A DNA stretch of 64,000 bases from Anaerolineae bacterium (GTDB lineage Bacteria > Chloroflexota > Anaerolineae > Promineifilales > Promineifilaceae). Of the stretch, positions 17,515 through 43,223 are shown in pieces. The stretch spans positions 1-64,000 of the forward strand of contig JAHBVI010000001.1 of NCBI GenBank assembly GCA_019637635.1. Direction: 5' to 3'. The position numbers and the translations under genes were made by a program. The notes under the pieces are model-generated. The model was given only the letters and a program-made list of their open reading frames with translations. It was not told the origin of the DNA and ran no database searches. Numbering within the stretch: position 1 is the stretch's first letter; each line of letters begins with the position of its first letter.

Positions 17515-19166
17515 ATGTCAGAATCAAGCCACCGCCCGCCCTCATCAACGTATACAACCCACGAGCGCATACCGTTTTGGCGCGACGGCCGTGTCCTGGG
17601 TGTATTGGCGCAGATCCTCTTTGTCATTGTGGTGGGGTCCGTCATTTACTGGTTCATCAGCAATGTGGCCGCCAACCTGAGCCGCTTAGGTGACTCCCAG
17701 TTTGTCTGTCTCTATGGCACCACCGAACAATGGTCATATCGCTGCGCCTTTGACTATTTGTCTTCTGAAGCCCAATTCGACATCTCCGAATCGGTCATCC
17801 CCTATCGAACCAGCGATTCTTACTGGCAGGCCATCCGGGTGGGGCTGCTCAACACCGTCAAAGTCTCTTTTATCGGTATTATTTTAGCCACAATTCTGGG
17901 TACCCTCACCGGCATCGCCCGCCTCTCTCAAAACTGGTTAGTTCGCAACATTGCCAAAACCTACATAGACATCATTCGCAACACACCCCTGTTGTTGCAG
18001 CTCTTTTTTCTCTATTTTGTGGTACTGCTGTTGGAACTGCCGGCGGTGGGTGCGGCGCTGCAACCATTTGGGCTGCCCATTTACATCAGCCAACGGGGCA
18101 TCAACTTTCCCAAAGTTGTTACCCTTAGCTCTTTTGCCATCTGGTTTGCATTTATTGTCCTGGCCCTGATTCAGGCGCAATTTTTGTGGATGTACCTGGG
18201 GGCGCGTGAAGAGAAGACCGGCAAAACCAGCAGCCGGTTGTTTTGGTGCATCTTTTCCTTTTTCGTCGTGGTGGGCCTGGGCTGGCTGGTGGCCAGCAGC
18301 ACGGCTCACAACGAAGGGTTCCTGGTGGCCAGAGCTGCCCGTGTGCGTGAATTTTCTGACCTGGAATCGCTGATGGAGCGCCGGCTGCGGCTGGATAATA
18401 TCCGGTTGTTGGATGAGTATGTGGAAAGGGGCCGCCTGAGCGCCGATGATGTGGCGGCATCGGCGCTGCTGGTGTGCAGCGTACAAGATTCACCTTCAGA
18501 GGTAAACCTGACGGCGCAATTGCGGGCGGCGGGTATTCCTTACAAGGTGAACCGTTTTGCCCGGCCAGACCAGGCCATTGATGCCTATGCAGAGGAGGCG
18601 ACGTGTGATGTTTTGGTGGCGCCCAAAGCAACGCTGGCGGCGGAGCGCAATCTTTTGGAAGACAGCGCCAACCATATGATTGTGCCGGTGCGGGAAACGC
18701 CGGCCCGTTGGGCTGTTCCGGCGCTGGAAGGGTTCAATTTTGTGGGCGGCAGCCGTATGTCGCTGGAATTTACGGCGCTGCTGGTGGGGTTGGTGGTGTA
18801 TACGGCCGCGTTTATTGCCGAGATTGTGCGCGCCGGTATCCTCTCGGTGGGCAAGGGGCAAAGCGAAGCGGCGCGGGCGTTGGGCCTCTCGGAAGGGCAG
18901 CGGCTGCGGCTGATTGTGCTGCCCCAGGCGCTGCGCGTCATCATTCCGCCGCTCACCAGCCAATGACCTGAACCTGACCAAAAATTCCAGCCTGGCGCTG
19001 GCGGTATTATCCCGATTTGTGGCGGGTGATGAGCATTATCGGCAACCAGTCTGGCCGTTCCATTCAACCCATTATTCTGACGGCATTGACCTACCTGACC
19101 TTTAGCATCGTCATCTCCTTGTTCCTGAACTGGTACAACAAGCGGATTCAGTTGGTGGAGAGATAA
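17515..19166 (+). pseudogene. aapQ: Amino-acid ABC permease AapQ, frameshifted near its 3' end
   Basis: ATG at 17515 with AGGGAG before it. The frame stays open to a stop at 18964, but the homologous C-terminus continues in two other frames. An apparent extra base near 18962 and two missing bases near 19006 break the end; after repair the protein would run through YPDLWRVMSIIGNQSG to the stop at 19164-19166, about 550 residues. It has membrane helices near residues 30-52, 110-135, 155-180, 205-228, 245-262 and 420-440, and an EAARALGL loop that contacts the ATPase. A roughly 140-residue periplasmic insertion lies at 262-405. The frameshifts may be assembly errors or real decay. Confidence 0.85.
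18454..18694 (+). other. Binding-protein-like segment inside AapQ
   Basis: Residues about 316-396 of AapQ (LLVCSVQDSPSEVNLTAQL, then DVLVAPKATLAAERNLL) can be aligned by eye with AapJ (GTVCVQSGTTTEKNLAQYF, then DGFTTDKSGLVSQQILL). The order of hydrophobic strands and the Ala-Tyr/Cys-Asp spacing agree. It sits in the loop between two membrane helices on the outer face. AapQ proteins of proteobacteria are about 400 residues and lack such a domain as far as I know. Confidence 0.6.
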
Positions 19167-19218
19167 TGCGTGATGCGTGATGCGTGACCCCATGTCTCAC
19201 GCATCACGCATCACGCAT
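19166..19218. repeat. Perfect inverted repeat of the GCGTGAT word
   Basis: Three copies of ATGCGTG at 19166-19187 are exactly complementary to 19197-19218 (22-bp stem, 9-nt loop). It fills the gap between aapQ and aapM, beginning at the last base of the aapQ stop codon. Confidence 0.85.
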
Positions 19219-19228
19219 CACAAAAAAC

Positions 19229-21238
19229 ATGGCTACCACATCCAAACCAAGAACAGTAACACGCCTTCCCCACATTCACTTCAATTGGGGCCAATGGGTG
19301 AGTGACCATATTACCCGAAGCTGGCTGCTGGCTTTGTGGCTGCTGCTGCTCACGGTAATTACGGTGCGGTTTACGCTCTCGCGGCTGGAAGCGACGCCGG
19401 TGACAACGATTGTGGTGTTGGTGGTCTGGGCGGTCAGCGTGGCGATCACGGTGTATGCGGAGCTGATTCACCGGCACACGGCCGTGACCCTCTGGCTGCG
19501 TAACAATCTCTACAACTCCCTCACCAATGTCCAACTAACGCTCATTCTGGCTCTGGCCATTCTGGCCATCATCTTTGGCCTGTTTAACTATGCCGTCACC
19601 ACCGCCAGCTTCCTGACGGTGCCGACCACCAATCTGCGGGCGGAAGCGGCCCCTGCCATTGGTGACAACTTCTGTTTCCGCATTGGAGCGCAAGATGCGG
19701 AAAGCGGCGGGGTGGTGAATGGGGACCCAACCTGTTTCCCGCGCTGGGCGTTTGTGCCCGAACTGTCGGAAACAAACATTAACGAGACGCCATTGGGCGT
19801 GGCCGCCGCCGCTTTTTGTTTTGATACACTCAGGGATGATGAGGAAAACGGCCGTACCTGCTTCACCAGCACCGCCGAAAATCCTGCCCTCTATGCCGTC
19901 TCCATCCAGTTCAGCGGCGCCAACTGGGGCGCCGTCTGGGCCAACCTGACCAACATGATGGTCTTCCGCTATAACCGCGCTGAATTGTGGCGGGTGTGGT
20001 TGTCTGCGGCCTTTGGCCTCCTGTTAGCTCTGGCCAGCTTTGTGGTCTATCGTGATGGCTTCCAGCACAAACGCATCCGCCGTGCCCTCACCTACCTCTG
20101 GCTGGCCTCCCCCATCATCTTTTACGTGCTGCTCGCCGGGGTACGACCGGTGACGGTTAATGAGTTCGTCAGCGAAGCCCTGCCCCTGGTGGGCATGGTT
20201 GTGCTGGCGGCGCTGCTGTGGTGGGCCAACCGCTACCTCAACCGCACCTACCCACCTGGTATTGGTGAATCAGAATGGGCGCGGCTCGGCCGTATTTTGC
20301 TGACCCTCACCGCCGGTATCTTTGCCTTCCTGGCCTTTTTCAGCGTCATCGAACTGATCTTTCTCTTTTTTGGCCTGTTCAAAACAGGCGAGAAGCCGCT
20401 CCTTGTGCCGGTGAACCCGGACGTGGACTGGGGCGGGTTTATGCTGACGCTCATCATCACCGCTTTTGCCATTGTTGTTTCCTTTCCGTTGGGTGTATTG
20501 CTGGCGCTGGGGCGGCGCAGCACCATTCGCGGCATTCCCAACTGGGTCACATATCCGGTCGCCTTTGCCATTATGATTTGGGGATTGCTCAACAGCACCC
20601 CCGAACTGCGTGCGACGGCCCGTAACAACTTTGAACTATTACTGGCTTACTGGCCGTTGGCATTGCCCTTCATCGCCTATGTTTTTCAGCGAGTATGGAA
20701 AGGGAACGTGGTCGCCGGTTTTTGCACCCTGTACATTGAATTTATTCGCGGCATCCCCCTCATTACCGTTCTCTTCCTCTCCATTATCCTGTTTCCCATT
20801 TTCCTGCCGCCGGGCATGGAATTCTTGAAAACGTGGCGGGTGATGTGGGCCTTTGCCTTCTTCTCGGCAGCGTACATGGCAGAAAATGTGCGCGGTGGTT
20901 TGCAGGCCATTCCCAGAGGCCAGTACGAAGCGGCCGATTCACTTGGCCTGGGCACATTTAGCAAGTACCGGTTAATCATTTTGCCGCAAGCCTTACGCGC
21001 CGTGATCCCGGCCATTACCGGCCAATACATTGGCCTGTTTAAGGACACGACGTTGGTTGCCATTGTCGGCTTGCTGGATATTTTGGGGGTTGCCAACTCC
21101 ATCGCTTCCCAACCCCAATGGTTGGGTGTACGCCGCGAAGCATATTTGTTCATCGCCCTCCTCTACTTCGTTGTTTCGGCCATCATCGTTAGCTATTCTG
21201 AACGGCTGGAACGGCAAACGGGGTTGGGGGAGCGGTAA
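19229..21238 (+). CDS. aapM: Amino-acid ABC permease AapM
   Basis: About 669 residues from ATG at 19229 (MATTSKPRTV); an upstream start at 19184 would lie in the repeat and is unlikely. The C-terminal third is the permease core, with helices and the coupling loop QYEAADSLGLGTFSKYRLI, followed by the conserved GQYIGLFKDTTLVAIVGL. The N-terminal part has extra helices and a Cys-containing periplasmic loop (about residues 130-235). It is longer than proteobacterial AapM/BztC (about 385-430 residues). It pairs with AapQ to form the membrane channel for amino acids delivered by AapJ. Confidence 0.92.
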   Translation: MATTSKPRTVTRLPHIHFNWGQWVSDHITRSWLLALWLLLLTVITVRFTLSRLEATPVTTIVVLVVWAVSVAITVYAELIHRHTAVTLWLRNNLYNSLTNVQLTLILALAILAIIFGLFNYAVTTASFLTVPTTNLRAEAAPAIGDNFCFRIGAQDAESGGVVNGDPTCFPRWAFVPELSETNINETPLGVAAAAFCFDTLRDDEENGRTCFTSTAENPALYAVSIQFSGANWGAVWANLTNMMVFRYNRAELWRVWLSAAFGLLLALASFVVYRDGFQHKRIRRALTYLWLASPIIFYVLLAGVRPVTVNEFVSEALPLVGMVVLAALLWWANRYLNRTYPPGIGESEWARLGRILLTLTAGIFAFLAFFSVIELIFLFFGLFKTGEKPLLVPVNPDVDWGGFMLTLIITAFAIVVSFPLGVLLALGRRSTIRGIPNWVTYPVAFAIMIWGLLNSTPELRATARNNFELLLAYWPLALPFIAYVFQRVWKGNVVAGFCTLYIEFIRGIPLITVLFLSIILFPIFLPPGMEFLKTWRVMWAFAFFSAAYMAENVRGGLQAIPRGQYEAADSLGLGTFSKYRLIILPQALRAVIPAITGQYIGLFKDTTLVAIVGLLDILGVANSIASQPQWLGVRREAYLFIALLYFVVSAIIVSYSERLERQTGLGER

Positions 21239-30083: not shown

Positions 30084-30824
30084 TTATTCCCCAGCCGCCG
30101 CTGCCGATTCGTCTGCGGCGCGTTCTTCTTGTTTGTAAACGGACGGCTCGGCCAACCCTAACCGCCGCTTGCGCTCTTCCAATTGAATGTCCAACTCAGC
30201 CTTGCCCAGGGACGTGTCCATCTGGCTATCCAGGCGGCTGGCGTACATTTCACTGTGGGCAGAGGCTTTGTCTAGCCGTGAGCGAATAGATTCACCCAGC
30301 CGGGCAATGTCGGCGTCGCCCACCCCTTCCAGATCGTCCAGGCTTTTGATGGCTTTGACGGTGGCTTCCTTAGATTTGGCCAGCCGCAGCAGCGCTTCCA
30401 ACTCCTGCTGCTCCTGGCGGATGGTGACCAGTTTGGCCTGCAATTTCAGGCGGGCATTGAGCAGCGCCTCATATTCGCGCTGTTGCCGCACCCACTGTTC
30501 GTGATATTGTTCTTCCAGGCGGCGGGTAGTATTGAGTTCGTTTTGGGCGGCGCGGGCCAGATCCGGTTTGCCCTGCATCAGCAGCATATCAATGTTCCGG
30601 TCAAGTTGGTCGCCTTTCTTTTTATACTCGTTGTATTTGCGTTCCATGGTTTTGACTTCACCGCCAACGGTGGCGGCCGCGTCTTCCAGGTCATCCAGAT
30701 TTTTTTCGGCGTCGCGGATGTATTGTTTCATTACCGCCGGGGAGTTGGCTTGCAGCGCCTGGTCTACCATCGCGTGCAAATTTGCCTGGATGAGGGTTTG
30801 GGTTTTTTCCAATAATGAGGCCAT
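30084..30824 (-). CDS. pspA: PspA/IM30 (ESCRT-III-like) membrane-stress protein
   Basis: A 246-residue protein from ATG at 30824 (MASLLEKTQTLIQANLHAMV), preceded by AAAGGAGAACT. It is almost entirely helical and coiled, with the family's AVMKQYIRDAEKNLDDLE segment near residues 28-45. PspA binds stressed membranes from the cytoplasm, forms rods and limits proton leakage. The Ala/Glu-rich C-terminus after residue 225 is variable in the family. Neighbouring membrane/coiled-coil genes and the hybrid kinase suggest an envelope-stress group; that link is an inference. Confidence 0.9.
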   Translation of the reverse strand: MASLLEKTQTLIQANLHAMVDQALQANSPAVMKQYIRDAEKNLDDLEDAAATVGGEVKTMERKYNEYKKKGDQLDRNIDMLLMQGKPDLARAAQNELNTTRRLEEQYHEQWVRQQREYEALLNARLKLQAKLVTIRQEQQELEALLRLAKSKEATVKAIKSLDDLEGVGDADIARLGESIRSRLDKASAHSEMYASRLDSQMDTSLGKAELDIQLEERKRRLGLAEPSVYKQEERAADESAAAAGE

Positions 30825-30849
30825 GAATAGTTCTCCTTTATAAGTTTGC

Positions 30850-30882
30850 AAAAGTTCAACTTTTCCTAAAAGTTGAACTTTT
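30850..30882 (-). terminator. 15-bp hairpin after the hybrid kinase gene
   Basis: AAAAGTTCAACTTTT and AAAAGTTGAACTTTT are complementary around three bases. On the minus strand it follows the kinase stop by 100 bases and ends in T-rich sequence. It also lies upstream of pspA. The rest of the 30825-30981 gap shows nothing else. Confidence 0.6.
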
Positions 30883-30981: not shown

Positions 30982-33315
30982 TCAGGTGGGCACGTGGATG
31001 GGTAAGGTGATGGTGAAACAACTGCCGCTTTCACCGCTTTCACCGCTTTCGCCGCTTTCGGGGGAGAATTGGCCGCTGAGACGGCCGTGATGCAGCGCCA
31101 CATACTGTTTAACAATGTGCAGGCTGGCGGCATAGTCGGGGGCGTCAATCAGGTTGATCTCCTCAGACGCCAGGACTTGTTGAAAGCAGGCCAATGCCGC
31201 TGCCTGGATGGGGGCGACGGTCGTGACCGATACATGCACTTCTTCCTCCTCCTGGCTGAGCGATATGTTGGCGGCAGGTGGGCGTGTTTCCGCCTGGGTG
31301 ATGCTGAATCTTAACAGGCGTTCGACGCAGTCAGACAACATGCGGGAATTGCCAAAGATGGTGGGGGTTTCCGGCAGAAAGGTACAGGTGACCACTGTTT
31401 CCGGGTGGTATTGACGGCCGTATACCTGGCTTAACTCATACAGCAGCAACCCAAACGCGGCGATGGGCTGCGCTTCCCAGGTGTAAGAAACGGTGGCCTC
31501 GCCGGTTTGCAATTCGGCCAGGGTAATCAAATCCTTCACAAGCTCGTTCAGACGTTCGCTCCCTTTTTTGATTTCAACTAAGGAAGCGGCCAGTTCCTCT
31601 GGCGATTCAACGCTGTCTAATCCCTGGGCCAGTTTGAGGGTGTGAACATTGACGGCCGTCAGGGGGTGCATCATTTCTCGTGTCACCAGGTTCAAAATCC
31701 CCCGCTTCAGCACCTCAAAATCCGCTTGCACCAACTGCTGCGATTGGAAATGTTTGTCCAGCCGTTTTTCCACCAGTTTTAGCACATCATCCGGTTCATA
31801 GGGCTTGATGATATATTCTTCCACACCCAGCCGCCGGCCTTTGTATTCGTCTTGTTTTTCGCCTTTGGCCGTTAGAAAGATAAAGGGAACATGCACCCAT
31901 TGCGGATTTTCGCGTACCGTTTGCAGGAATTGGTACCCGTCCATTTGGGGCATCATAATGTCAGAAATAATCAAATCTGGTTGGTGGTCTTGTAAAATTT
32001 CCAACCCTTCACGGCCGTTCGTGGCTGTTAAGATGTGCAGGTCATACCGTCCCTCAAACAGCAGGAGCAAATCGGCCAGGCCGTGTAACAGGTTTTCTTC
32101 ATCTTCCACCAGCAGCAAGGTGGCCGGGATGCGGTTGTTAGCCGGGCGCACCGGCCACTCACCCTCAGGCGCATACATGGGCAGCAGTACGGTAAAAACG
32201 CTGCCATTATTCTCTTCACTATGCAACACAATACGGCCGTGATGCAATTCCACCAGATCGCGGGCAATGGTCAACCCCATGCCCGCCCCCTGCTGCTCCA
32301 TCAACGAGCGGTTATACTGCTCAAATAAATCAAAAATTCGTTCATGCATGGCCGCCGGAATGCCCAACCCCGTGTCGCTGAAAGCCACGCCCACCTCATG
32401 TCCTTGTGTAAAAACTGTCACCTGTACCAGCCGCTTCCGGCCCGTCACCGGCGCCGTAAACTTGATGGCATTGTTCAGCAGGGCGTCAAAAGCTGTTTGC
32501 AACCCGGCAGCGTCACCCCAAAAAGAGGGCGCCCGCGTCGCCGGTTCAAAGAGAATGGTCACCTGCTCCTCATCGGCAAACGGCCGTTGCCCATCAATAA
32601 CTGCCTGCACCAGACCATTCAAATCATCAATCCGATGACGGCGCTGCGCAAACTGCTGCGCCATCGCGCCGCTGCGCAGTTCAATAACCTGAATCAGCGC
32701 GCCCACCAGATTCGTCAGCCGCACACAGCCCGTTTGAATCCCATGTAAATACTCGCCATAATTCCGGTCAGCCTGGCGCGTTTCCAGGCTATTCAGGTAG
32801 TGATCCAGCATATCGTAATAAGCTGTCACGTAAGTGAGCGGGGTTCTAAACTCATGGTTTAGAATCTGCATCATATTCTTTTTCAACGATTCCAGGGTTT
32901 GCTCCCGGCGTTTGCGCCGCTCAAAACTACGATCCAACTGCGTCTGGATCAATTCGGCCAGTTCCCCCATCACAAAAGGTTTTGTCAGATACAGGTCGGC
33001 GTCACTCAACCGCCCTTTGCGCACATCTAGCTCTTTGCCTCGCGCCGTCAGGAAAATAAAAGGAATGTGTGTCCAGTCCGGGTTCTGGCGTACATAGCGC
33101 AAAAATTCAAAACCATCCATGCCCGGCATCATAATATCAGACACAATCAAATCCACCGGATGTTGCCTCATCATCTCCAGCGCAATCTGACCATTCCCGG
33201 CTTTTAGGGGGCGCAAATTGTAGCGAGAGGGGAAAACCTCCAGAGCATCGGCTATGCCGTTCAGCATATCTACATCATCTTCTACGATGAGGATGGTCAC
33301 CACACGACTTTTCAT
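30982..33315 (-). CDS. Hybrid sensor kinase with two receivers and a degenerate second kinase
   Basis: About 777 residues from ATG at 33315 (MKSRVVTILIVED). Receiver 1 (about 5-125) has the phospho-Asp in DLIVSDIMMPG. Kinase 1 has the H-box NHEFRTPL (about 158) and a complete ATPase with DTGLGIP. Receiver 2 (about 405-525) has DLIISDIMMPQ. A second H-box-like segment reads TREMMHPLT, with Arg where the phospho-His should be. The tail before the last strand holds repeated Ser-Gly-Glu. No membrane helix or sensor domain is seen, so signals must come through the receivers. No separate output regulator lies nearby. Confidence 0.9.
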   Translation of the reverse strand: MKSRVVTILIVEDDVDMLNGIADALEVFPSRYNLRPLKAGNGQIALEMMRQHPVDLIVSDIMMPGMDGFEFLRYVRQNPDWTHIPFIFLTARGKELDVRKGRLSDADLYLTKPFVMGELAELIQTQLDRSFERRKRREQTLESLKKNMMQILNHEFRTPLTYVTAYYDMLDHYLNSLETRQADRNYGEYLHGIQTGCVRLTNLVGALIQVIELRSGAMAQQFAQRRHRIDDLNGLVQAVIDGQRPFADEEQVTILFEPATRAPSFWGDAAGLQTAFDALLNNAIKFTAPVTGRKRLVQVTVFTQGHEVGVAFSDTGLGIPAAMHERIFDLFEQYNRSLMEQQGAGMGLTIARDLVELHHGRIVLHSEENNGSVFTVLLPMYAPEGEWPVRPANNRIPATLLLVEDEENLLHGLADLLLLFEGRYDLHILTATNGREGLEILQDHQPDLIISDIMMPQMDGYQFLQTVRENPQWVHVPFIFLTAKGEKQDEYKGRRLGVEEYIIKPYEPDDVLKLVEKRLDKHFQSQQLVQADFEVLKRGILNLVTREMMHPLTAVNVHTLKLAQGLDSVESPEELAASLVEIKKGSERLNELVKDLITLAELQTGEATVSYTWEAQPIAAFGLLLYELSQVYGRQYHPETVVTCTFLPETPTIFGNSRMLSDCVERLLRFSITQAETRPPAANISLSQEEEEVHVSVTTVAPIQAAALACFQQVLASEEINLIDAPDYAASLHIVKQYVALHHGRLSGQFSPESGESGESGESGSCFTITLPIHVPT
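31024..31062. repeat. 9-bp tandem repeat in the kinase C-terminus
   Basis: About four copies of CGCTTTCAC-type units encode the Gly-Glu-Ser repeats in the last 20 residues of the kinase. The copy number could vary by slippage without shifting the frame. Confidence 0.7.
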
Positions 33316-33404
33316 GGGTGCATTATAGCATAAGCCAGGAGGCAAACTGAGAGGAACAAAGTACCCAAACGAGGCGACACGTGGGCGGTGGGAGGAACTA
33401 CAAA

Positions 33405-33474: not shown

Positions 33475-34212
33475 TTAATTTGTGCGCAATCGGTGGGCCG
33501 CAAATAGGACGACCACCAGGAGCAAGCCGATCAGGGCAATGGCCCATGTTTCCAGGCCGGTTTGCGGCAAGGCGCCGGTTTGGGAACCGGCGACTGTGGT
33601 TGGCGTGCTGCCGGCGACAATCACGCTGCCGCTGCTGCCGGCGCCGGTATCACCACTACCACCACCGGCAACGGCCGTGCCGCCGCTCTCACCGCCACTG
33701 CCGGCAACGGCCGTGCCAATGATAATTGTACCGGGAACGCCTTCACCACCCGCACCCGGCGCCGTTTCCTCATCACCACCCGCGCCCGCTTCTTCCCCAT
33801 CGCCTGTTTCCGCGCCATCCGTAGACCCCTCGTCGCCCCCAGTTCCCACCGAACCCAATACGCTGGTTGGGGTGGCGGTGGCTACTTCGGCCACAGCGGC
33901 CGGCGTGCTGGTATTGGTGGCCTGTGGTTCTGGCGTCTGCGTGGGTGCGGCCTGCGCCGTTTCTGTTTCGATGATGAACTGGGCGATGGCCGTGTTTGTT
34001 ACCATCACAATGGCATTTTGTGTTTCAATGGCCGAAATTTCGGTCGAATTGGTTGTGCCGCTGTTGTCCAACATCATCAACACGACCACACAGGCAGCAG
34101 CTAACACAAACACGGTTATCAATGCCCCAGCAGCCATCAAAAATGGCCGATTACTCGATGCACTTCCTTCTTCTTCTACCAGATACTCATCATCCGCGAA
34201 TTCATCTTCCAT
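33475..34212 (-). CDS. Surface protein with LPQTG sorting signal
   Basis: A 245-residue protein. An acidic cytoplasmic N-terminus (MEDEFADDEYLVEEE) is followed by a membrane helix (about 25-48). A Thr/Gly/Ala/Ser low-complexity stalk comes next, and then a C-terminal LPQTG, a hydrophobic helix and the basic tail HRLRTN. The tail matches the cell-wall sorting signal recognised by sortases, but the N-terminal helix is not a cleavable signal, which is unusual. It starts 70 bases after the KOW/barrel gene and may be the last gene of the MutL operon. No sortase is in the window. Start chosen: ATG at 34212 with GGAGGCAACCA before it. Confidence 0.8.
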   Translation of the reverse strand: MEDEFADDEYLVEEEGSASSNRPFLMAAGALITVFVLAAACVVVLMMLDNSGTTNSTEISAIETQNAIVMVTNTAIAQFIIETETAQAAPTQTPEPQATNTSTPAAVAEVATATPTSVLGSVGTGGDEGSTDGAETGDGEEAGAGGDEETAPGAGGEGVPGTIIIGTAVAGSGGESGGTAVAGGGSGDTGAGSSGSVIVAGSTPTTVAGSQTGALPQTGLETWAIALIGLLLVVVLFAAHRLRTN

Positions 34213-34282: not shown

Positions 34283-35341
34283 CTAAATAATAACGTCCAC
34301 ATTGGCAAAGGGCGTGAAGACCACCTGCCCATCGGCCAGACGAATGTTGGCCCCCTGCGCTTTGGCGCCGGTTGCCAGCAATTGTGACAGCATGAAAATT
34401 TCAACCACTTCCCCGGTTTGCCCCACAAAAGGGGCACGCAGCAGGCGTACTTTTTGCCCAATTTGCAGCGGTTTGTTGGCCTGCACGGCTTCGCTGCTGG
34501 GGGTAGCCGGTTCGGGGATAATGATCTCTGGTCGCTGGCCCCGGCTGGCGTCATAATTGGCAAAGAGCGAAGTTTCGCGCCCTTCTACTTGCTGCAGCAG
34601 GCCAAATATAACGGGGGACATGCTTTGTTTGCCAACGCCATCGGTTAAAATGATGGGGTATTTCAACCCGTAAGCAGCATCGCATAAATCAGCGGTCATA
34701 CTGCCGGCAATGATTCCGGCTACGGCCATTTCTTGCGCCAGGTGCAGCACTTCTTCATGTTCCAACCTGCCCACTGCCAAAATGTGTTTATTTACTTCAC
34801 CTGTCAGTTGATCTTTGGCTAAGAAGCCGTTGTTGCTGCGCGACATGATCTTCAACTTGCCGTGGTTTTCTTTGCGTGATCCCCAAATACCTTGAATGAA
34901 AGCGCCATAAGTTTCAATGACCACGCCTCTGTCACCCACATGGCTGACCACTTTGCCAGAAACCAGGGCAGGTGTTTCTACCCAATCGGCAGCTTGTTGG
35001 ATGAAGATACGGCCGTTAATCACATCATATAATTCACCGGCCACAGGGGATATAACCTGCCGGGCGCGCAGCCCTTTTTTCTGCGCCAGAACGGTACCTT
35101 CATCTACCGCAGAATTTTTTTCCACGATGACAAGTTCATTTACCTTTTCTGGTGGCACACCTAAAATCTGGCCGGCATCTACGATGACAAAAACGGTTTG
35201 CATTGGCGTGCGGGCCACGATCTGGCCGGGGGTGACTTCCGTGCCAATTTTTACAATCATTTCCCCGCTTTGCGGCAATACCCGCTCGCGGCGAATTTTC
35301 ATATGCGGCTGAATAATGGTTGTGCGTGTGTAATGTTCCAT
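34283..35341 (-). CDS. Barrel-sandwich hybrid plus KOW-like protein beside MutL
   Basis: About 352 residues from ATG at 35341 (MEHYTRTTIIQP). The N-terminal 140 residues look like biotinyl/lipoyl-type barrel-sandwich modules (SGEMIVKIGTEVTPGQIVAR, then SPVAGELYD) but lack a biotin- or lipoyl-lysine motif. The middle is mixed alpha/beta. The end has a KOW-like SH3 segment (GQKVRLLRAPFVGQTGEVVE). No signal or membrane helix is seen. It follows the MutL-type gene after a 90-base gap containing a hairpin, and shares its orientation. I know no function for such a protein. Confidence 0.75.
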   Translation of the reverse strand: MEHYTRTTIIQPHMKIRRERVLPQSGEMIVKIGTEVTPGQIVARTPMQTVFVIVDAGQILGVPPEKVNELVIVEKNSAVDEGTVLAQKKGLRARQVISPVAGELYDVINGRIFIQQAADWVETPALVSGKVVSHVGDRGVVIETYGAFIQGIWGSRKENHGKLKIMSRSNNGFLAKDQLTGEVNKHILAVGRLEHEEVLHLAQEMAVAGIIAGSMTADLCDAAYGLKYPIILTDGVGKQSMSPVIFGLLQQVEGRETSLFANYDASRGQRPEIIIPEPATPSSEAVQANKPLQIGQKVRLLRAPFVGQTGEVVEIFMLSQLLATGAKAQGANIRLADGQVVFTPFANVDVII

Positions 35342-35351
35342 GATTGCTCGC

Positions 35352-35413
35352 AGACCTGACAGGTTTTCACCAGTTCGATTTGGAACCCCATAGGTCAAAA
35401 ACCTGTCAGGTCT
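35352..35413 (-). repeat. CCTGACAGG-family hairpin between MutL and KOW genes
   Basis: AGACCTGACAGGTTTT and AAAACCTGTCAGGTCT form a perfect 16-bp stem with a 30-nt loop. The stem lies inside the operon, directly before the KOW-protein start codon, so it may reduce or tune downstream expression. Confidence 0.7.
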
Positions 35414-35431: not shown

Positions 35432-37195
35432 TCAACCACCCAAATCCCACTGCCATTTACGCATCAGGCTGCGCCGGTCATTGGGGTCACGCGGCAGAGC
35501 CAACGGCCGTCCGCGGGCATCAATGACCAGCCCACCCACCAAACCGCCCTTCAGCGTCAGCGTTTTTCCCTGGCCGGGGCCAAACCCAATATCAAAACGC
35601 CCGGTTGGTTTTACCGTCACCTGGGCTTCCTGGCCGGGGGAAATGGGAAACACCTCAATCTTGCCAAATTCAATTTCCCCTTCAAACCGGGCGGTTGGTG
35701 ATTCAATGACAATGTCCAGCACCTTTTTGCCCGGCTGCCCTTTGCCTGCCGGGGCAATTACCCAGCCCAATTCGGAGAGTACCCCGGCGGCCAACGTCTG
35801 CACCACAACCAGCGGTTGCTGGCCGGCCAATACCCCCAACGGCGGCAAAACGCCATATTGGTCCAATCCCACCGAAAATATGCCGGTTGGTTGCAGGGCA
35901 TCGAGTAACAGCAGCATCACCTGGCCCGGACGTGGCGCTCTGGCAAAAACAGCGCCATGCACCAACAGCCGGTCAAAAGCAGGCACATGCAGCGCGTGGC
36001 CGTTTGACGCCCAATGCCATTCAACGGCCGTAGACTGCAATGCACAGTGCAACATGGCCCGCGCCGCCGCCTGTTCCAGATGTAAATCCGCTTCCGTCAG
36101 CGGGATCGTTTGAGGGTAGAGCGATTTATTAACCAGGTAATTGGCTACGTCCGGTTCATCTACCTCGTCCGGCAGCCAACGCATGATGTTGTCTACGGCC
36201 GTGTGCTGCAGCAAATGGGCCATCGGCTCACCCATGCCCAAATCCGTGCGCACAGAGAGATGCACCTGGCCCGCCTGGGCCATCACCAGGGTAGTGCTGT
36301 TACTACCCAAATCAATGCCCAATACCCGCTGCTCTTGCCCGGCATAATAGTGGCACACATGGGCAAAGCCCCGCGCCGTGGGCAGTGTGGGAAAACCGGC
36401 CCACTCACTTAGCTCATGGATGCCGGGCAAATTTTGAATTTTAATATCTTCATACAACTCCTCCGCCAGCCGCATCACATCATCCAACTGCTCTGTTGCC
36501 AGATCGGGGCGGATGTTGTTCGCCATATGCAAATGAGCGTTTCCCTCCAGCAGTCCCCGCACCTGTTCCCGCAGTTTCAAGTTGCCCGCGTACAGCACGT
36601 GAGGTAGCTGGCTGTCGGCCAGCACCATGGCCGCTACCACTGCCACTTCCACCAGCCGCAGCAGACGCTCTTCCGCGCCGCCATCCGTACCACCGGCAAT
36701 GGCAATGAGATCGGGGCGGCTTTTGATGACGGCCGTAATCTGCTCCGCTTCCGGGCGTGTGTCGGCCAGGCTCACCACCTCCACCTCTTGCACATAAATC
36801 GTGCGCAGCGCCTTGCGCAAACTGGCCAGACTCATCTCGTCATACAGCCCCACCAGCACCGTTTTAAGCGGCGAAGGCGCGCTGACAACCATGGCAAAAT
36901 GGTCAACCCCAGAGCCGTCTTTGCGGGGTGGGCGAATGAGATGCCCTCGTTCATTGAGTAGTTTCCGGCCCGTTATCTCTGAGAGGCGGCCTATCCCCTG
37001 CTGCACACAGGTCATCACATCTAGCCAGGGCAGTCGCGCCGTGGTGGGCACAGAAGCACAGGCCACCAACCGGTAACTGCCATCAACGGTATCAATCAGG
37101 ATCACCGTCGTGTTGGTAGCGCCAATGTCGGCCAGGACAAATGATTTTTCCAGGTCATCTATTTCCTGGATGGGCTTTTCTTCCAATTCAGCCAT
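35432..37195 (-). CDS. MutL-family actin-like ATPase (glutamate mutase L type)
   Basis: About 587 residues from ATG at 37195 (MAELEEKPIQEID), two bases after the previous stop. It shows two phosphate-1 loops of the actin/Hsp70 fold: FVLADIGATNTTVILID (about residue 20) and VLGIDLGSNSTTLVMA (about 290). The central IAIAGGTDGGAEERLL matches the MutL family. In clostridia, GlmL/MutL lies between the glutamate mutase subunits and is thought to serve that B12 enzyme. No mutase subunit is visible here; the partners are membrane and scaffold proteins. A role as an ATP-driven assembly or envelope factor is my inference. Confidence 0.87.
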   Translation of the reverse strand: MAELEEKPIQEIDDLEKSFVLADIGATNTTVILIDTVDGSYRLVACASVPTTARLPWLDVMTCVQQGIGRLSEITGRKLLNERGHLIRPPRKDGSGVDHFAMVVSAPSPLKTVLVGLYDEMSLASLRKALRTIYVQEVEVVSLADTRPEAEQITAVIKSRPDLIAIAGGTDGGAEERLLRLVEVAVVAAMVLADSQLPHVLYAGNLKLREQVRGLLEGNAHLHMANNIRPDLATEQLDDVMRLAEELYEDIKIQNLPGIHELSEWAGFPTLPTARGFAHVCHYYAGQEQRVLGIDLGSNSTTLVMAQAGQVHLSVRTDLGMGEPMAHLLQHTAVDNIMRWLPDEVDEPDVANYLVNKSLYPQTIPLTEADLHLEQAAARAMLHCALQSTAVEWHWASNGHALHVPAFDRLLVHGAVFARAPRPGQVMLLLLDALQPTGIFSVGLDQYGVLPPLGVLAGQQPLVVVQTLAAGVLSELGWVIAPAGKGQPGKKVLDIVIESPTARFEGEIEFGKIEVFPISPGQEAQVTVKPTGRFDIGFGPGQGKTLTLKGGLVGGLVIDARGRPLALPRDPNDRRSLMRKWQWDLGG

Positions 37196-37197
37196 AG

Positions 37198-37842
37198 CTA
37201 AGGGTTCAGTGCCTGCATATAGAAATAAATCCGGCCAGCCAACAAAACAAAGCTGGTATTCAGCAGCGCCGCAAACAGCGCGCCAAAGGTTATCATCAAC
37301 ACGGCGCGGCCCAGCCACACAATGCCCTGCTGCCAACGCGCCGGTTCCCACACGCCGCTGCCGCCGGCCCGGAACGCGGTGAATTGAAATGACAACAGTG
37401 TCAGCGCCGCCAACACAGCGATGAGAATGCCGCGCAAGGGATCACTGGTGTTGGCATAGGTGCCGGTTAACTGTGGCCACAGCGTCCCGGTTAAAGCGCC
37501 CAGAAAGGCAATGGCCGCGCCCACACCCACCAGCAGCGCCAACGGGATGTTGCCCACCCAACTGGCCGCGCGCAGCCGGCGCAGCAGCAAAAACAATGCC
37601 AGCAAAATGGGAACCAGCAGATAAATGGTGTCGGCCGGGCCGGGATTTTCGGTGATGGTGCGGTAGACAGGTTCAAATACTTGCTGCACCACAACCACCA
37701 CAGCATAAGCGGCGCTGGCCCCAACCAGAATGTGTATGGCCAGGCGATAAGGAATCCTATCTCCAATGAAGAGATAGCTGTAAATACAGAGCGTCAGGGT
37801 GAGTCCCACCAATAGGCCGATGAAATCTGCATTCAGGGTCAT
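37198..37842 (-). CDS. Polytopic membrane protein of the MutL operon
   Basis: A 214-residue protein with about six membrane helices (for example near residues 7-25, 33-52, 68-85, 95-118, 135-155 and 180-205). No family was recognised. Its start is two bases after the stop of the zinc-ribbon scaffold gene and its stop is two bases before the MutL start, so the three are translated as a unit. The N-terminus MTLNADFIGLLVGL resembles the kind of small integral protein that anchors an ATPase to the membrane. Confidence 0.78.
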   Translation of the reverse strand: MTLNADFIGLLVGLTLTLCIYSYLFIGDRIPYRLAIHILVGASAAYAVVVVVQQVFEPVYRTITENPGPADTIYLLVPILLALFLLLRRLRAASWVGNIPLALLVGVGAAIAFLGALTGTLWPQLTGTYANTSDPLRGILIAVLAALTLLSFQFTAFRAGGSGVWEPARWQQGIVWLGRAVLMITFGALFAALLNTSFVLLAGRIYFYMQALNP

Positions 37843-37844
37843 AA

Positions 37845-40800
37845 TTATCTTGTACGACGCTGGGCGGTAATGCCGGTAATTAAATAGATGAGTGCGCCCA
37901 ACAGCAGGACAACCACCGCCAACATTTGGGCGGCAACCTGGGCATTGAATAAGGTGCGGGCATCCGTTAATTGGGCGTTACGGTAATAGGTTTGCTGGTA
38001 CACGGCCGTGCCCGGTATGCCATTCACCACACCGGCAAGCTGAGCCGTGTCAAAATAGGGCAGCGCCAGGGGCGTTAATGCCTGGGTGACGCCGGCTATC
38101 ATCGGCCGGTCGGCGGGAGCGCCCACCTGCTCCACCCAATTGACCAATGTTTGCCGGTCGGCCGTCAGCACAATGATCAAGGAGACATCGGCCAACGCCT
38201 GTTCCTGGCTGGCCGGTAGGGGCGCGCCAAACAGGGCGTCACAGTTGGCGGACTGGTTCAGACATTCACCTAACCGCCGTAGCCCAATGGCCCCACCCGG
38301 CAAATAACCCAGGGGCACGGCCGTGTCCATCCCGATCTGTTCGGTAACATCTGCTGCTACTTTGACGCCGGGGGTATATTGGCTCAGCGTCAGCACACGG
38401 GTTTGCGCGTCGGCTAACTGCATCAGCAGCGTCTCCGCTTCTGGCGTCAACTCACCGGCCATAGCCGGCGTATATTCAAAGGCAATCAATACCGTGCCGC
38501 CGGCGGTCTGGCTCACGGCCGTGTTCACGCCCGTTAATGCCGCTGACGGCCGTAGTTGGGTCGGGATGACGGGAATTTCACCACGCAAACCTAAAATGAC
38601 GACCAGCAGCAGCACCACCACAAATAACGGCCGTATCCAACCCGAAATATCACGCGCCGTTTGCCGGGTGGTTGTTGTCTCGGCCCCCTGCCCATCCTGC
38701 GCCAATTGGCGCAGCAAATTCGCCTGCTGCACCTGCTCTGGACTGACGCCAAATTGCTCTAAAGGATCGGCCACCCGTGGCAGGGCGATCACCGGTTCCA
38801 CCGCCACCACACCGCGCAGACCACTCAAGGGGCCAAACGATTCCTCCGGCCCGGTCGCCTCCACTTTGGGGCTTTCGCCGGTCAGCTCTACCGGTTTTAG
38901 CTCCATCACCCAGGCCGGGATGTCTGCCTTGGGCAGCAGGTCTTGCAGCGGCACGGCCGGTGGTAGATCGTCGAGAATGGCGCTCCATTCATCGCTGGCC
39001 CCGGTCATGCCGGTTGCGCCCGCCGGTTGGTCGGCCAGAAAATCGGCGTCGGCTGCATCCAGCGTTAAGCCGGGCTGAAGCCAATCGGGAATGTCGGCAA
39101 GCTGCGTGTCGGCCGGCATGGCAATGGATGGGGCAGCGCCGGCATCGTGGGAAATGTCTTGCAGCCAGTCTGGTAAATCAGCGCCGGCCAATTCTTCGGG
39201 TACACCGGCCAACGTTTCCGGCGTTTTATCGCGCCAGACAGAGGCTAAAACGCTCTCTGTCATCGCCTGTCCGGGGCGCATATTGGCGATCCAATCCGGC
39301 AGCTCATCGCTGGGGATCAGTTCCCCTTCCTCATCTACCATTTCCGGTAGTGAGGTGGTGGCGTCAAGCTGGCTGATCCACGCCGGCAGTTCCCCTTCTG
39401 GTTCGGCCACATCAAAAGAGCTTTCTGCCGCCCAATCTTCATCTGTATAAGGGGCGACGTCGGGAATAACGGCCGTGTCGTCGGCAAACTCCTCTGCAAA
39501 ATCGGCGATGGGGGCGGCGGGCACAGCCGCTTCGTCTACGCCTGGTTCCGGCGCTCCCGGTTCTTCTATTTCCGGCAGCCGTAAATCTTCTGGCCCCATG
39601 GCCGCCAGCGCCGCCAGCCAGTCTGGCTCATCAGACAGGATGCCATCGGTGAAGAGATCATCTGTCTCCGAAACGTCTGACAGCAATTTATCCATTGCCT
39701 CATCATCCAGATGCAGGCTGCCACTCTGACGCAGAAAATTAATCTCTGTTGCTGCTGCCAGGCTCTCTGTTTTGAAAATGTCGTCCAGACTATCGCTCTC
39801 CAGATCATACCCGGTCGGCGCTGCTAAATCTGCCGATGCGGCCACACCGGCCAGCCAATCGGGCAACTCTTCGGCAATGCCTGGTTGAGACTGGAAAATG
39901 GAGGCCAGCTCTTCTTCTGTTTCCTCCAGCCAGCCAAAGTCACTGGGGATTTCTGGCGAGATGGCGGCTTTTTCTGGCGGCGCCGCTTCATCCAGCCAGC
40001 TGAATTGCTCAGTTTCTTCATCTGCCGGAGGCGCTGTGTCGCTAAACCAGGCAGCCAGCCGGGCCGCCTCATCTGGCTGCGGTTTGGCCGGGGGTGTCGC
40101 TTCGGTCTCTGGCGCTTCGGCAAACCAATCCATGAGGCCCCGGTCAGCTTGAGAATCGGCGGGAGTTACGGCCGTTTCCTCTTCATCGCCCCAATCATCA
40201 AACCAGTCGGCTAAACCCTCTTCCAATGGCGCACTAATCTCTGCTGCCGGTTTGTCCGCTGGTTTGCCCGCCGGTTCAGCAAACCAGGCTGCCAGCCTGC
40301 CCGTTTCTGATGGCCCGACGCTGCTTTCGTCCCAGGTTTCATCCTCTTCTGGGAAGTCCTCTTCTGGGAAATCGGCTTCTGCGAAATCGGTGAGCCAATC
40401 TGTCAGGTCTTCCTGAACCTGCCCGGCGTCAACGGCTTCGGTGTCTGGTTCTGCGCTGGCCTCCACAAACCAATCTGTCAATCGTCCGGCTTCGGCTGCG
40501 CTTCCTTCGCCTGGTACCGGCGTGGCCTCTTCCTCTTCATCTCGAAAATCAGAAAGCCAGTCGGTGAGGTTGTCTTGAAGCTCATCCGCGGCCATGGGCG
40601 CCACGGAAGATGGTGTTCCTTGTACGGCTAACCATTCCGTCAGGTCAGGGGCATCGGATTCGCTTGCCGCCGCCCATTCGTCTTCTGACTCAATCGGCGT
40701 GTCTGCTAACCAACTGGTCAAACTCTCTTGATCTTCTTTGCCGGGCGTCACGGTGCTGTCCGCCTCCTGAGATAACCAGGAGGTGAGGCTGTCGGCGGGC

Positions 40801-41576
40801 TGCCGAGGCAAATTCCAATCATCCTCTTCTTCTAGCTGGGAGGATGACAACCAGCTCGTCAGGCTTTTTTCGGCTTCCGGTGGTTGGGGGGGCAACGGCC
40901 GTGCTGCTTTTGCCGGCTTTTCTGGCGTCCCACTCTCTTCCTCATCTACACCGACCGACTTTGCCGGGGGTGGCCCCGTTTTACCGGCCGATGGCCCGGC
41001 ATCCATTAGCCAATCGGGTAAATCGGCTTCATCTTCCGCGAAAAGATCATCCGGGAGGGTTGGCGTTGCTTCCGCGCGCCCTAACAAATCCTTGTAAAAC
41101 TCGGTGGAAATAATGGTGGGGGCATGGATGATGGGGTCGGAGTCCTCTTCATCAACCAACCATTCTGGCAGATCGTCCGTGTGCCTTTTGCGAGTCAACT
41201 CCTCAATACGCGGCAGGTCTAACCCTGCCAGATCGTCGCTGTCAGGTTCCCGGCCCATTTTGCCGGTCTTGAGCCAATCCGGTACCTTGTTGGGGTCCAG
41301 GTCGCCGGTTTCTCCGGGGCGGCGGGCCGGTAAGGAAAAAGCCCCTTTGACGGGGGCGGCCGGTTCATCTTTGGCTTTGGCCTCAGGGCGTGGCTCTTCA
41401 GGAATTAAGCGGGTGCCGCAATGATCACAAAAAACACGGTCAATGGGGTTCGACGTGCCACAGTTGACGCAGATGATGTGGGTACCCAGGGGTAATTTTG
41501 CCCCGCAGTTGTTACAAAATTTACTGCCGGCCGGGTTTGAAAAGGCACACTCTTTACAAACAATTTCCTGACTCAT
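37845..41576 (-). CDS. Zinc-ribbon scaffold protein with many acidic Trp motifs
   Basis: A 1,243-residue protein. Two zinc ribbons begin it (CKECAFSNPAGSKFCNNC and CVNCGTSNPIDRVFCDHC). About 850 residues of acidic, probably disordered sequence follow. They hold roughly twenty motifs of the form Leu-x-x-Trp-Leu/Phe/Ile (LTSWLS, LTDWLS, LADWFDDW, LPDWLQ, IPAWVM). A membrane helix (around 985-1005) precedes a folded external domain and a second helix near the end (VVVLLLGALIYLITG). Regular spacing of short motifs on a long tether suggests a multivalent docking platform; that is inference. It overlaps the preceding gene by four bases (ATGA). Confidence 0.85.
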   Translation of the reverse strand: MSQEIVCKECAFSNPAGSKFCNNCGAKLPLGTHIICVNCGTSNPIDRVFCDHCGTRLIPEEPRPEAKAKDEPAAPVKGAFSLPARRPGETGDLDPNKVPDWLKTGKMGREPDSDDLAGLDLPRIEELTRKRHTDDLPEWLVDEEDSDPIIHAPTIISTEFYKDLLGRAEATPTLPDDLFAEDEADLPDWLMDAGPSAGKTGPPPAKSVGVDEEESGTPEKPAKAARPLPPQPPEAEKSLTSWLSSSQLEEEDDWNLPRQPADSLTSWLSQEADSTVTPGKEDQESLTSWLADTPIESEDEWAAASESDAPDLTEWLAVQGTPSSVAPMAADELQDNLTDWLSDFRDEEEEATPVPGEGSAAEAGRLTDWFVEASAEPDTEAVDAGQVQEDLTDWLTDFAEADFPEEDFPEEDETWDESSVGPSETGRLAAWFAEPAGKPADKPAAEISAPLEEGLADWFDDWGDEEETAVTPADSQADRGLMDWFAEAPETEATPPAKPQPDEAARLAAWFSDTAPPADEETEQFSWLDEAAPPEKAAISPEIPSDFGWLEETEEELASIFQSQPGIAEELPDWLAGVAASADLAAPTGYDLESDSLDDIFKTESLAAATEINFLRQSGSLHLDDEAMDKLLSDVSETDDLFTDGILSDEPDWLAALAAMGPEDLRLPEIEEPGAPEPGVDEAAVPAAPIADFAEEFADDTAVIPDVAPYTDEDWAAESSFDVAEPEGELPAWISQLDATTSLPEMVDEEGELIPSDELPDWIANMRPGQAMTESVLASVWRDKTPETLAGVPEELAGADLPDWLQDISHDAGAAPSIAMPADTQLADIPDWLQPGLTLDAADADFLADQPAGATGMTGASDEWSAILDDLPPAVPLQDLLPKADIPAWVMELKPVELTGESPKVEATGPEESFGPLSGLRGVVAVEPVIALPRVADPLEQFGVSPEQVQQANLLRQLAQDGQGAETTTTRQTARDISGWIRPLFVVVLLLVVILGLRGEIPVIPTQLRPSAALTGVNTAVSQTAGGTVLIAFEYTPAMAGELTPEAETLLMQLADAQTRVLTLSQYTPGVKVAADVTEQIGMDTAVPLGYLPGGAIGLRRLGECLNQSANCDALFGAPLPASQEQALADVSLIIVLTADRQTLVNWVEQVGAPADRPMIAGVTQALTPLALPYFDTAQLAGVVNGIPGTAVYQQTYYRNAQLTDARTLFNAQVAAQMLAVVVLLLGALIYLITGITAQRRTR

Positions 41577-42205
41577 TTGTTATACGGCCGTTCTAATCCG
41601 ATCAGCATACGCACCGACAGCAAAATAGAACCAAGCGCCACTCCTATGAGCAAACCACGTACACCGGCAATCACGATCACATTTTGGATCACGTCTTGAA
41701 TACGGAAAAACCATTCGCTCAACAGCGGCGGCGCCCAGGATGTGACCAACAAGACATCAGCGGCTAAAACGAGTACGGCTGTGACCAAAAACAATATAGA
41801 CCACACCGTGCGCTGCCGCTTCATCAATTGAAACCCGGCAAATAACAAGAAAAAGGCCAACAACGAAGCCAGCGCCGCTTCTAATGGCGCTTGAACCCAA
41901 TCAAAATAATGGGTCATGCCATTTTCGGTTATCCCTATCCGGTCTAACACCGCAATGGTAAATACCGCGGCCATGCTGAGAATGAGAACCAGACTATACA
42001 AATTCCCTTTTCTAACAGTCCGGTTCAAATGCACCACGAACAGATTTAATACACCCAAAACCAGCGCAAAGGCCACCAGCAGCCCGGCCCAACCCAGAGT
42101 CAGGTTTGTTACTACTGGCGGCAGGTTAAACACCAGCCCCAACAGCGTCAGCCAGCCAAAAAACAGGGCGATGGCTATGGGTAACAGTTGGTTCGTGCGG
42201 CGCAT
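41573..42205 (-). CDS. Polytopic membrane protein of the MutL operon
   Basis: A 210-residue protein with five or six membrane helices (near residues 8-28, 38-56, 70-88, 105-125, 135-155 and 175-200). No family was recognised. The ATGA overlap with the scaffold gene and a two-base gap from the gene before it indicate coupled translation. It is similar in size and hydrophobicity to the membrane protein at 37198-37842, but I see no clear sequence match between them. Confidence 0.77.
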   Translation of the reverse strand: MRRTNQLLPIAIALFFGWLTLLGLVFNLPPVVTNLTLGWAGLLVAFALVLGVLNLFVVHLNRTVRKGNLYSLVLILSMAAVFTIAVLDRIGITENGMTHYFDWVQAPLEAALASLLAFFLLFAGFQLMKRQRTVWSILFLVTAVLVLAADVLLVTSWAPPLLSEWFFRIQDVIQNVIVIAGVRGLLIGVALGSILLSVRMLIGLERPYNK

Positions 42206-42207
42206 AC

Positions 42208-42951
42208 TCAGAAAAGACCTTCAACCAGGGCCAACAAAACGATCCCGCCGGCTAAAATCCAGCGAATGATGTCTTGCAACTGTAATGTAGCCAGACGGCT
42301 GGGGTCATCTCGCAGGTAAGCGCCAGCCGCCAGCAGCTCTTCACCTACCAGCACATTCTGGCTAAATGCCGTGGCTACCGCCAACGCCGAGGGGTCATCT
42401 GTGCCTAATAGTTGGTCCAGACGGCGGTTGTTGGCGGCTTCGGCAATCAGGGCCAGTTCGGGGCCAAATCGGCCTACGGCAATGTTGCCGGTGACGCGAT
42501 CTTGCTGCAAGAGGCTGGCGGCGCCGCCAGCATAGATGAAGGGGGTTGTTTCGGGGGCAATAAAGCGCACCTGGTCGGGGGCAAACTCACCGCTGCGCCC
42601 GGTTTCCTGGTAGGCGTGGCGCAAACTGCCCTGGGCAATGGGCAACAAGGTGCCTTCGCCCACCGTAACCAATGGCGGGGTGCTGTTGGCGCAGCCATCA
42701 ACAGCCAGGTGATCCAATACCTGGAGAGCGGCAATGGTGGTGGGGGCGGCCTGGTTTACCAGACCGGCCTGCCCCAGGGTGACGTGCAGGGGACTGCCGC
42801 TTTCGATGGAGCGGCCCAGCTGGCCTTTAATGCCATCTAAAGCGGGCAACGGCCGTAACGCCACCTGCCGCCCAACCTGGACGCTGCGGGTTAACAAAAA
42901 CAGTAATACGGCTAAGGCCGCTATAATGCCCAGGATAATCAGTGGGGTCAT
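42208..42951 (-). CDS. Membrane-anchored protein, possibly DUF6754-like
   Basis: About 247 residues from ATG at 42951 (MTPLIILGIIAALAVLLFLL). One N-terminal and one C-terminal membrane helix frame a folded region with VTLGQAGLVN, TPPLVTVGEGTLLP and VRFIAPETTPFIYAGG. I associate this pattern with the DUF6754 family common in Chloroflexota, but this is from memory. An upstream ATG-like frame extension to 43083 would overlap the previous gene and is rejected. The ATGA at 42948-42951 couples it to the small gene before it. Confidence 0.78.
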   Translation of the reverse strand: MTPLIILGIIAALAVLLFLLTRSVQVGRQVALRPLPALDGIKGQLGRSIESGSPLHVTLGQAGLVNQAAPTTIAALQVLDHLAVDGCANSTPPLVTVGEGTLLPIAQGSLRHAYQETGRSGEFAPDQVRFIAPETTPFIYAGGAASLLQQDRVTGNIAVGRFGPELALIAEAANNRRLDQLLGTDDPSALAVATAFSQNVLVGEELLAAGAYLRDDPSRLATLQLQDIIRWILAGGIVLLALVEGLF

Positions 42952-43223
42952 GCCTGTTCTGCCTCTCCTGCGTTTAACCTGACGAGTAATGCGCGCACGG
43001 CCGTTGGCTCGGCCAGGAGTTGTGCCAGTTGTCGTACCAGATGCGAGGGGATAAAGAGGGAAAGCGCCGGCTGTGCTACCCACAACACCTGCTCCCCAAA
43101 AAAATGGAACGGGGGGCCACCCTCCAATAAAATAGTTACAGGCGTTTGCCAGCCACGGCGGCGCACGGCCGTCGCCAGCTTTTCTATAAATTCACCCGCT
43201 TCCTGTGCCCGTAACTCTTCCAT
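42948..43223 (-). CDS. Small protein opening the MutL operon
   Basis: About 91 residues from ATG at 43223 (MEELRAQEAGEFIEKLATAV). It looks like a soluble alpha/beta protein (GWQTPVTILLEGGPPFHFFG, VLWVAQPALSLFIPSHLV). A TTG at 43274 would add 17 residues with two Cys; I prefer the ATG, though its ribosome site is weak. It is the first gene after the operon promoter and is linked to the next gene by an ATGA overlap. No family was recognised. Confidence 0.68.
   Translation of the reverse strand: MEELRAQEAGEFIEKLATAVRRRGWQTPVTILLEGGPPFHFFGEQVLWVAQPALSLFIPSHLVRQLAQLLAEPTAVRALLVRLNAGEAEQA

Follow-up and report, generated by a model that had tools for sequence, protein, structure and literature searches.

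Eukaryotes offer well-documented cases of short docking motifs that are read in many copies at once; to our knowledge, few are known in bacteria. In the pyrenoid and the carboxysome, EPYC1 and CsoS2 are long, disordered proteins that carry many spaced copies of one short motif. Disordered pyrenoid linkers are treated in PMC11570498. A second kind of precedent comes from actin-fold ATPases: FtsA and PilM each bind a bitopic protein, FtsN and PilN respectively, by its short cytoplasmic tail (PMC7613929).

Here we describe a membrane protein, encoded in a 64,000-nucleotide stretch at the start of a contig from an Anaerolineae bacterium (the window), that resembles both. As in EPYC1 and CsoS2, many copies of one conserved motif lie in a linker that appears disordered by composition. 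Unlike those proteins, this scaffold is membrane-anchored and capped by zinc ribbons, its motif is unrelated, it has neither a shell nor Rubisco, and its docking is predicted. As with PilN and FtsN, a membrane protein with an N-terminal cytoplasmic tail is encoded beside an actin-fold ATPase whose model is nearest FtsA and PilM; short tail segments dock in those systems (PMC7613929) and are proposed to do so here. In contrast to the single tail of about 30 residues found there, the tail of the scaffold runs to about 970 residues with about 20 motifs and zinc ribbons; moreover, its outer domain is Rossmann-like, and the ATPase belongs to the MutL (GlmL-like) family, with no match to the FtsA model. 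In principle, the scaffold is a variation on known multivalent-motif scaffolds combined with tail-gripping actin-fold ATPases.

The scaffold gene and its operon

The initial annotation had placed at 37845-41576 a protein with two zinc ribbons, about twenty Leu-x-x-Trp-Leu motifs on an acidic tether, and one membrane helix with an external domain. These coordinates delimit an exact open reading frame of 1243 aa on the minus strand, which lies within a run of genes of conserved order:

42208..43083, minus strand: DUF6754 membrane protein, whose gene opens the conserved operon (Pfam PF20539, 8.6e-33; synteny)
41573..42205, minus strand: TMa, conserved hydrophobic membrane protein, 210 aa (synteny)
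37845..41576, minus strand (41576 -> 37845): scaffold gene, 1243 aa, ATG start; orthologues hold the equal operon position
41406..41576, minus strand: two zinc ribbons, residues 1-57 (Pfam DZR 3.4e-10, Zn_Ribbon_1 8.5e-10)
38652..41405, minus strand: acidic low-complexity linker, residues 58-975 (acidic composition; charge-hydropathy plot places most of it among disordered sequences)
38907..41285, minus strand: array of 20 phi-x-x-W-phi motifs, residues 98-890 (shuffle enrichment; dN/dS contrast)
38892..38927, minus strand: membrane-proximal motif, DIPAWVMELKP region (orthologue alignment)
38559..38651, minus strand: TM helix 1, residues 976-1006 (hydropathy; helix in the model)
37986..38543, minus strand: Rossmann-like domain flanked by both TM helices, probably extracellular (AF2 model)
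37857..37955, minus strand: TM helix 2, residues 1208-1240 (hydropathy; model)
37198..37842, minus strand: TMb, conserved hydrophobic membrane protein, 214 aa (synteny)
35432..37351, minus strand: MutL-like ASKHA (actin-fold) ATPase (Pfam MutL 7e-54; AF2 pLDDT 86.5)
34283..35398, minus strand: KOW / barrel-sandwich-hybrid protein (weak Pfam RnfC_N and KOW matches; class synteny)
33475..34212, minus strand: 245-aa protein, next gene in close relatives (no family match; loosely conserved)

Both zinc ribbons were found as described, with four CxxC pairs, a match to the Pfam double zinc ribbon family (DZR, PF12773; 40.3 bits against a cut-off of 27.3) that covers residues 7-54 only, and 80-98% identity in near relatives. 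The tether is indeed acidic: residues 71-975 contain 24% D+E and 5% K+R, and the linker as a whole (residues 61-975, 915 aa) abounds in A, E, D and P and has little K or R. Ordinary globular folding, which would have spoken against the original description, is disfavored for most of it, as most linker blocks fall on the disordered side of a charge-hydropathy plot; residues 561-660 and the blocks from 761 onward are exceptions. Judged from composition rather than by a trained predictor, the linker is thus likely to be disordered. The domain described as external (about 190 residues, in AF2 blocks at pLDDT 78-98), which probably does lie outside the cell, also stands, but two TM helices flank it, not one, and the linker would lie on the cytoplasmic side. 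Among solved folds, the model of the outer domain comes closest to the CODH epsilon subunit (Z 10.2, rmsd 3.0, 144 aligned), a likeness that seems to say little about function, and a Foldseek search with the domain returned generic Rossmann matches only, none below 1e-3. Homology between this domain and DUF6754 was rejected, as profile comparison found none. Recent tandem duplication within the gene was likewise rejected, since it holds only three short repeats of 9-15 bases.

Of 298 genomes of the class, 196 encode a relative of the C-terminal part of the scaffold (a 339-residue query). Wherever the fetched contigs were long enough, the gene order DUF6754 - TMa - scaffold - TMb - MutL-like ATPase - KOW protein was constant, with few divergent exceptions (for example L064). 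DUF6754 was found in 87 of the 400 genomes of the whole draw at E up to 1e-3, including other classes of the phylum, and the first five genes occur together in other Chloroflexota classes too; in several genomes of those classes the KOW gene is encoded elsewhere, unlinked to the operon. The impression that no bacterial family had been described this way held for Pfam, NCBIfam and the literature searched, none of which describes the operon or the scaffold family; the literature search returned nothing on DUF6754 or on LPDWL-type motifs in such proteins, and the operon as a whole matches nothing in the libraries searched. A family does exist, and it is phylum-wide: the scaffold belongs to it, and it has hitherto gone undescribed.

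Several observations concern gene boundaries and neighbors. The true start of the ATPase is probably downstream of the start of the 35432-37351 frame, because the N-terminal ~64 residues, which the model shows as disordered, overlap with TMb or the end of it, and because orthologues are mostly ~580-600 aa. An in-frame TGA was noted for several f11 genomes; in L051 the match overruns the gene's own stop by three codons, so recoding was rejected there. In the family of the window, the KOW gene is followed by a hybrid histidine kinase gene (30982-33345 in the window), downstream of which lies a PspA/IM30-family gene (30084-30851). Of five unlinked KOW loci retrieved from other classes, four also have such a kinase gene next to the KOW gene (for example L144 12276-13946); as a fixed partner the kinase was rejected, the association not being general.

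The motif array: consensus, copy number and selection

Among the 30 tryptophans of the linker (residues 61-975), 20 lie within [LIVMF]xxW[LIVMF], whereas 20,000 shuffles gave 1.2 on average and never more than 7, so the count first reported was right. The regular placement reported with it was only partly recovered: 11 of 19 gaps measure 22-29 residues, and the others range from 37 to 159. Motifs near the membrane have the class-wide LPDWL/IPDWL form, and the LTSWL, LTDWL and LAAWF forms are a speciality of the window genus and close genera. As T, A or M takes the place of P in many motifs of the window genus, the proline is evidently replaceable. The most conserved copy is the membrane-proximal one, the last of the array. 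It lies about 90 residues before TM helix 1 and is found in most orthologues, with the class consensus AEIPxWLxALRP followed by GPLAGLRGVLPxEP in the orthologue alignment. The rest of the array may have arisen from this copy as its ancestor.

Across relatives, the consensus from 314 motifs is [E/D]-[LIVM]-P-[D/E/A/S]-W-L, with a preference for L at +4 and an excess of R/K at +2 and of R at +5. Proline occupies -2 in 82% of motifs, acidic residues are favored at -4 and -1, and L at +1. The position four residues after the tryptophan is hydrophobic in 63% of cases (58 loci), compared with only 4-14% at +2, +3, +5, +6, +7 and +8. With +4 as the hydrophobic offset after W, L-3, W0, L+1 and phi+4 would share one face of an amphipathic helix.

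In 49 of the 58 loci the motif is enriched over shuffled sequences at p<0.01. The median over the loci is 12 copies, and motif count follows protein length (rho 0.84, 58 loci). Conservation of the motif in orthologues, on which the initial annotation had staked its reading, thus holds for the motif itself but not for its number, which runs from 0 to ~60, with none in some lineages. Scaffolds at L047, L102 and L104 are motif-free, as are the minimal TM-domain-TM forms at L099 and L105, and degenerate P(x)WL forms remain at L055 and L064. Because some lineages have only the TM-domain-TM core, this core can do without the cable. At the other extreme are giant orthologues of 2885 aa with ~40 motifs (L046 9720-18377) and 2661 aa with ~60 motifs (L066). 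At L046 an upstream open reading frame (18381-20000) also carries motifs, and the two are perhaps one gene split by a stop or an assembly error.

A comparison with the relative L113, whose linker is 51% identical, shows W retained in 19 of the 20 motifs, the -3 position in 18, -2 in 17 and +1 in 16, whereas other hydrophobic residues are kept at 80 of 143 positions and D/E at 102 of 205. In three comparisons dN/dS was 0.04-0.06 in the motif core and 0.16-0.19 in the rest of the linker, synonymous sites being near saturation in the most distant of the three. Purifying selection acts about 3-4 times more strongly on the motif core than on the surrounding linker.

Multivalent docking, which was proposed at the outset, is the best-supported reading, because the motif is conserved phylum-wide while the linker drifts, shows helix periodicity and is under stronger purifying selection; binding itself is predicted, and the motif helices would be the docking elements. 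The spacing of hydrophobic stickers in an acidic spacer and the free copy number would also suit helices that stick to each other or to the membrane, as a sticker-and-spacer condensate or an amphipathic anchor without a specific reader. We judge this improbable, as P at -2 in most motifs, acidic residues at -4 and -1, L at +1 and the strong selection are more specific than a generic sticker requires, and the net negative charge of the linker disfavors anionic membranes.

A second carrier of the motif

A genome-wide search with the pattern [LIMVF]-P-[DE]-W-[LF] found two multi-site clusters within single genes, the window scaffold and a TPR protein of the form TPR-(xPDWL)n-TPR (1984 aa; contig C179, G000:C179; L033 4778-10732, minus strand). 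The two are alike in motif, acidic linker and roughly in copy number, the TPR protein carrying 16 motifs in an acidic middle. They differ in that the TPR protein has TPR ends, no zinc ribbon or TM helix that we could see, and an unlinked gene. Its N-terminal TPR family is class-wide, many members carry the motif, and its motifs show the same +4 preference as the membrane scaffold (80 of 150).

This second carrier bears on whether the reader lies in the operon at all. In an alternative that we consider unlikely, though well short of far-fetched, the cable would dock on a general cytoplasmic hub encoded outside the operon, which reads both scaffolds and links them. The motif clusters in just two unrelated proteins of the genome, with equal +4 preference, and both carriers are class-wide. 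Furthermore, the window genome has partly lost the proline at -2 in both (48% and 69% P, each the lowest of the genomes compared), which hints at a shared reader. As the TPR scaffold lies outside the operon and is motif-less in several lineages, the reader may be a general protein. The hub is harder to reconcile with several lineages that have motifs in the membrane scaffold and none seen in the part of the TPR homologue examined. That the two scaffolds co-vary in D/E at the motif was rejected as evidence of a link, because background composition explains the shared preference equally well.

Candidate readers and the proposed complex

The MutL family PF13941 includes GlmL, the glutamate mutase accessory protein. 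The operon ATPase is a member of this family (183.7 bits against a cut-off of 27) but falls far below the GlmL equivalog cut-off (NF040745; 66.1 bits against 475), and glutamate mutase had no match among the neighbors scanned. Its AF2 model is nearest FtsA (Z 14.8, rmsd 9.6, 283 aligned), with FtsA bound to an FtsZ peptide (Z 14.5, rmsd 6.1, 261 aligned) and PilM:PilN (Z 12.5, rmsd 6.2, 264 aligned) also high in the ranking; acetone carboxylase and other ASKHA proteins come close behind. In the window genome (G000), the FtsA model TIGR01174 hits one gene on contig C2 and, more weakly, three other loci, none of which is the window ATPase.

Given the FtsA/PilM precedent and operon adjacency, the operon ATPase is the first candidate reader. 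We hold this partner assignment tentatively and think it rather doubtful. Actin-fold proteins have a common fold without common partners, which counts against choosing a partner by fold. In addition, the ATPase is retained in motif-less lineages and can therefore do without the motif. In four motif-less loci, two of them related, profile scores deviated by -0.5 to -3.0 sd for MutL, -2.2 to -3.6 sd for KOW and -0.7 to -3.3 for DUF6754, and MutL and KOW score below the prediction from the membrane partners, the profiles having been built mostly from motif-bearing lineages. We treat this drop as a lead only, and KOW falls at least as much as MutL, which counts against a MutL-specific signal. The case for the KOW protein as the obvious reader is itself weakened by its position outside the operon in several genomes of other classes, though it is present there.

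The FtsA-like fold raises a further alternative, namely that the motifs imitate the C-terminal tail of FtsZ ([DE]-I-P-A-F-L-R) and compete with it for FtsA, SepF or similar readers. Both FtsZ proteins of the window genome end in this layout, EIPAFLRRR / DIPAFLRKR, with F for W. We regard such mimicry as very unlikely: unselected positions place the FtsZ tails only in the top 2.7-3.8% of ordinary aromatic 5-mers, a weak signal, and true FtsA is present in 20 of 20 genomes tested, including motif-less ones. The two FtsZ genes are G000:C112:61060 and G000:C2:17017 (L073, L074), with tails EIPAFLRRR and DIPAFLRKRENQ; given an assembly contamination of 8%, one of them may be foreign.

We return to the operon-based reading, to which we give an even chance: the protein would serve as scaffold subunit in a hitherto undescribed membrane complex of the Chloroflexota, presenting many copies of a docking helix on a disordered cable with the ATPase as partner. 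In this model, the outer Rossmann-like domain and the two TM helices would form a core with DUF6754, TMa and TMb. The N-terminal part would be a disordered, acidic cytoplasmic cable with a zinc-ribbon cap and many copies of the amphipathic helix phi-P-x-W-L-x-x-phi, each docking weakly on one common reader, so that the number of copies would provide avidity, clustering and reach. The reader would be the actin-fold MutL-like ATPase of the operon, gripping the cytoplasmic tail of a membrane protein in the mode of PilM-PilN or FtsA-FtsN; that the ATPase is clustered at the membrane in this way is a guess.

The operon spans several Chloroflexota classes, and we found no described function for it. 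It is conceivable, if somewhat less than probable, that it encodes a phylum-wide machine without known counterpart, in which a polyvalent cable recruits many actin-fold ATPases to the membrane through a private motif code common to the TPR scaffold, and in which the cable has grown and shrunk during evolution around a constant core complex. For motif-based docking in bacteria, the locus offers a case in which the consensus is clear, selection has left a measurable signature, the operon is conserved and two unrelated proteins carry the motif.
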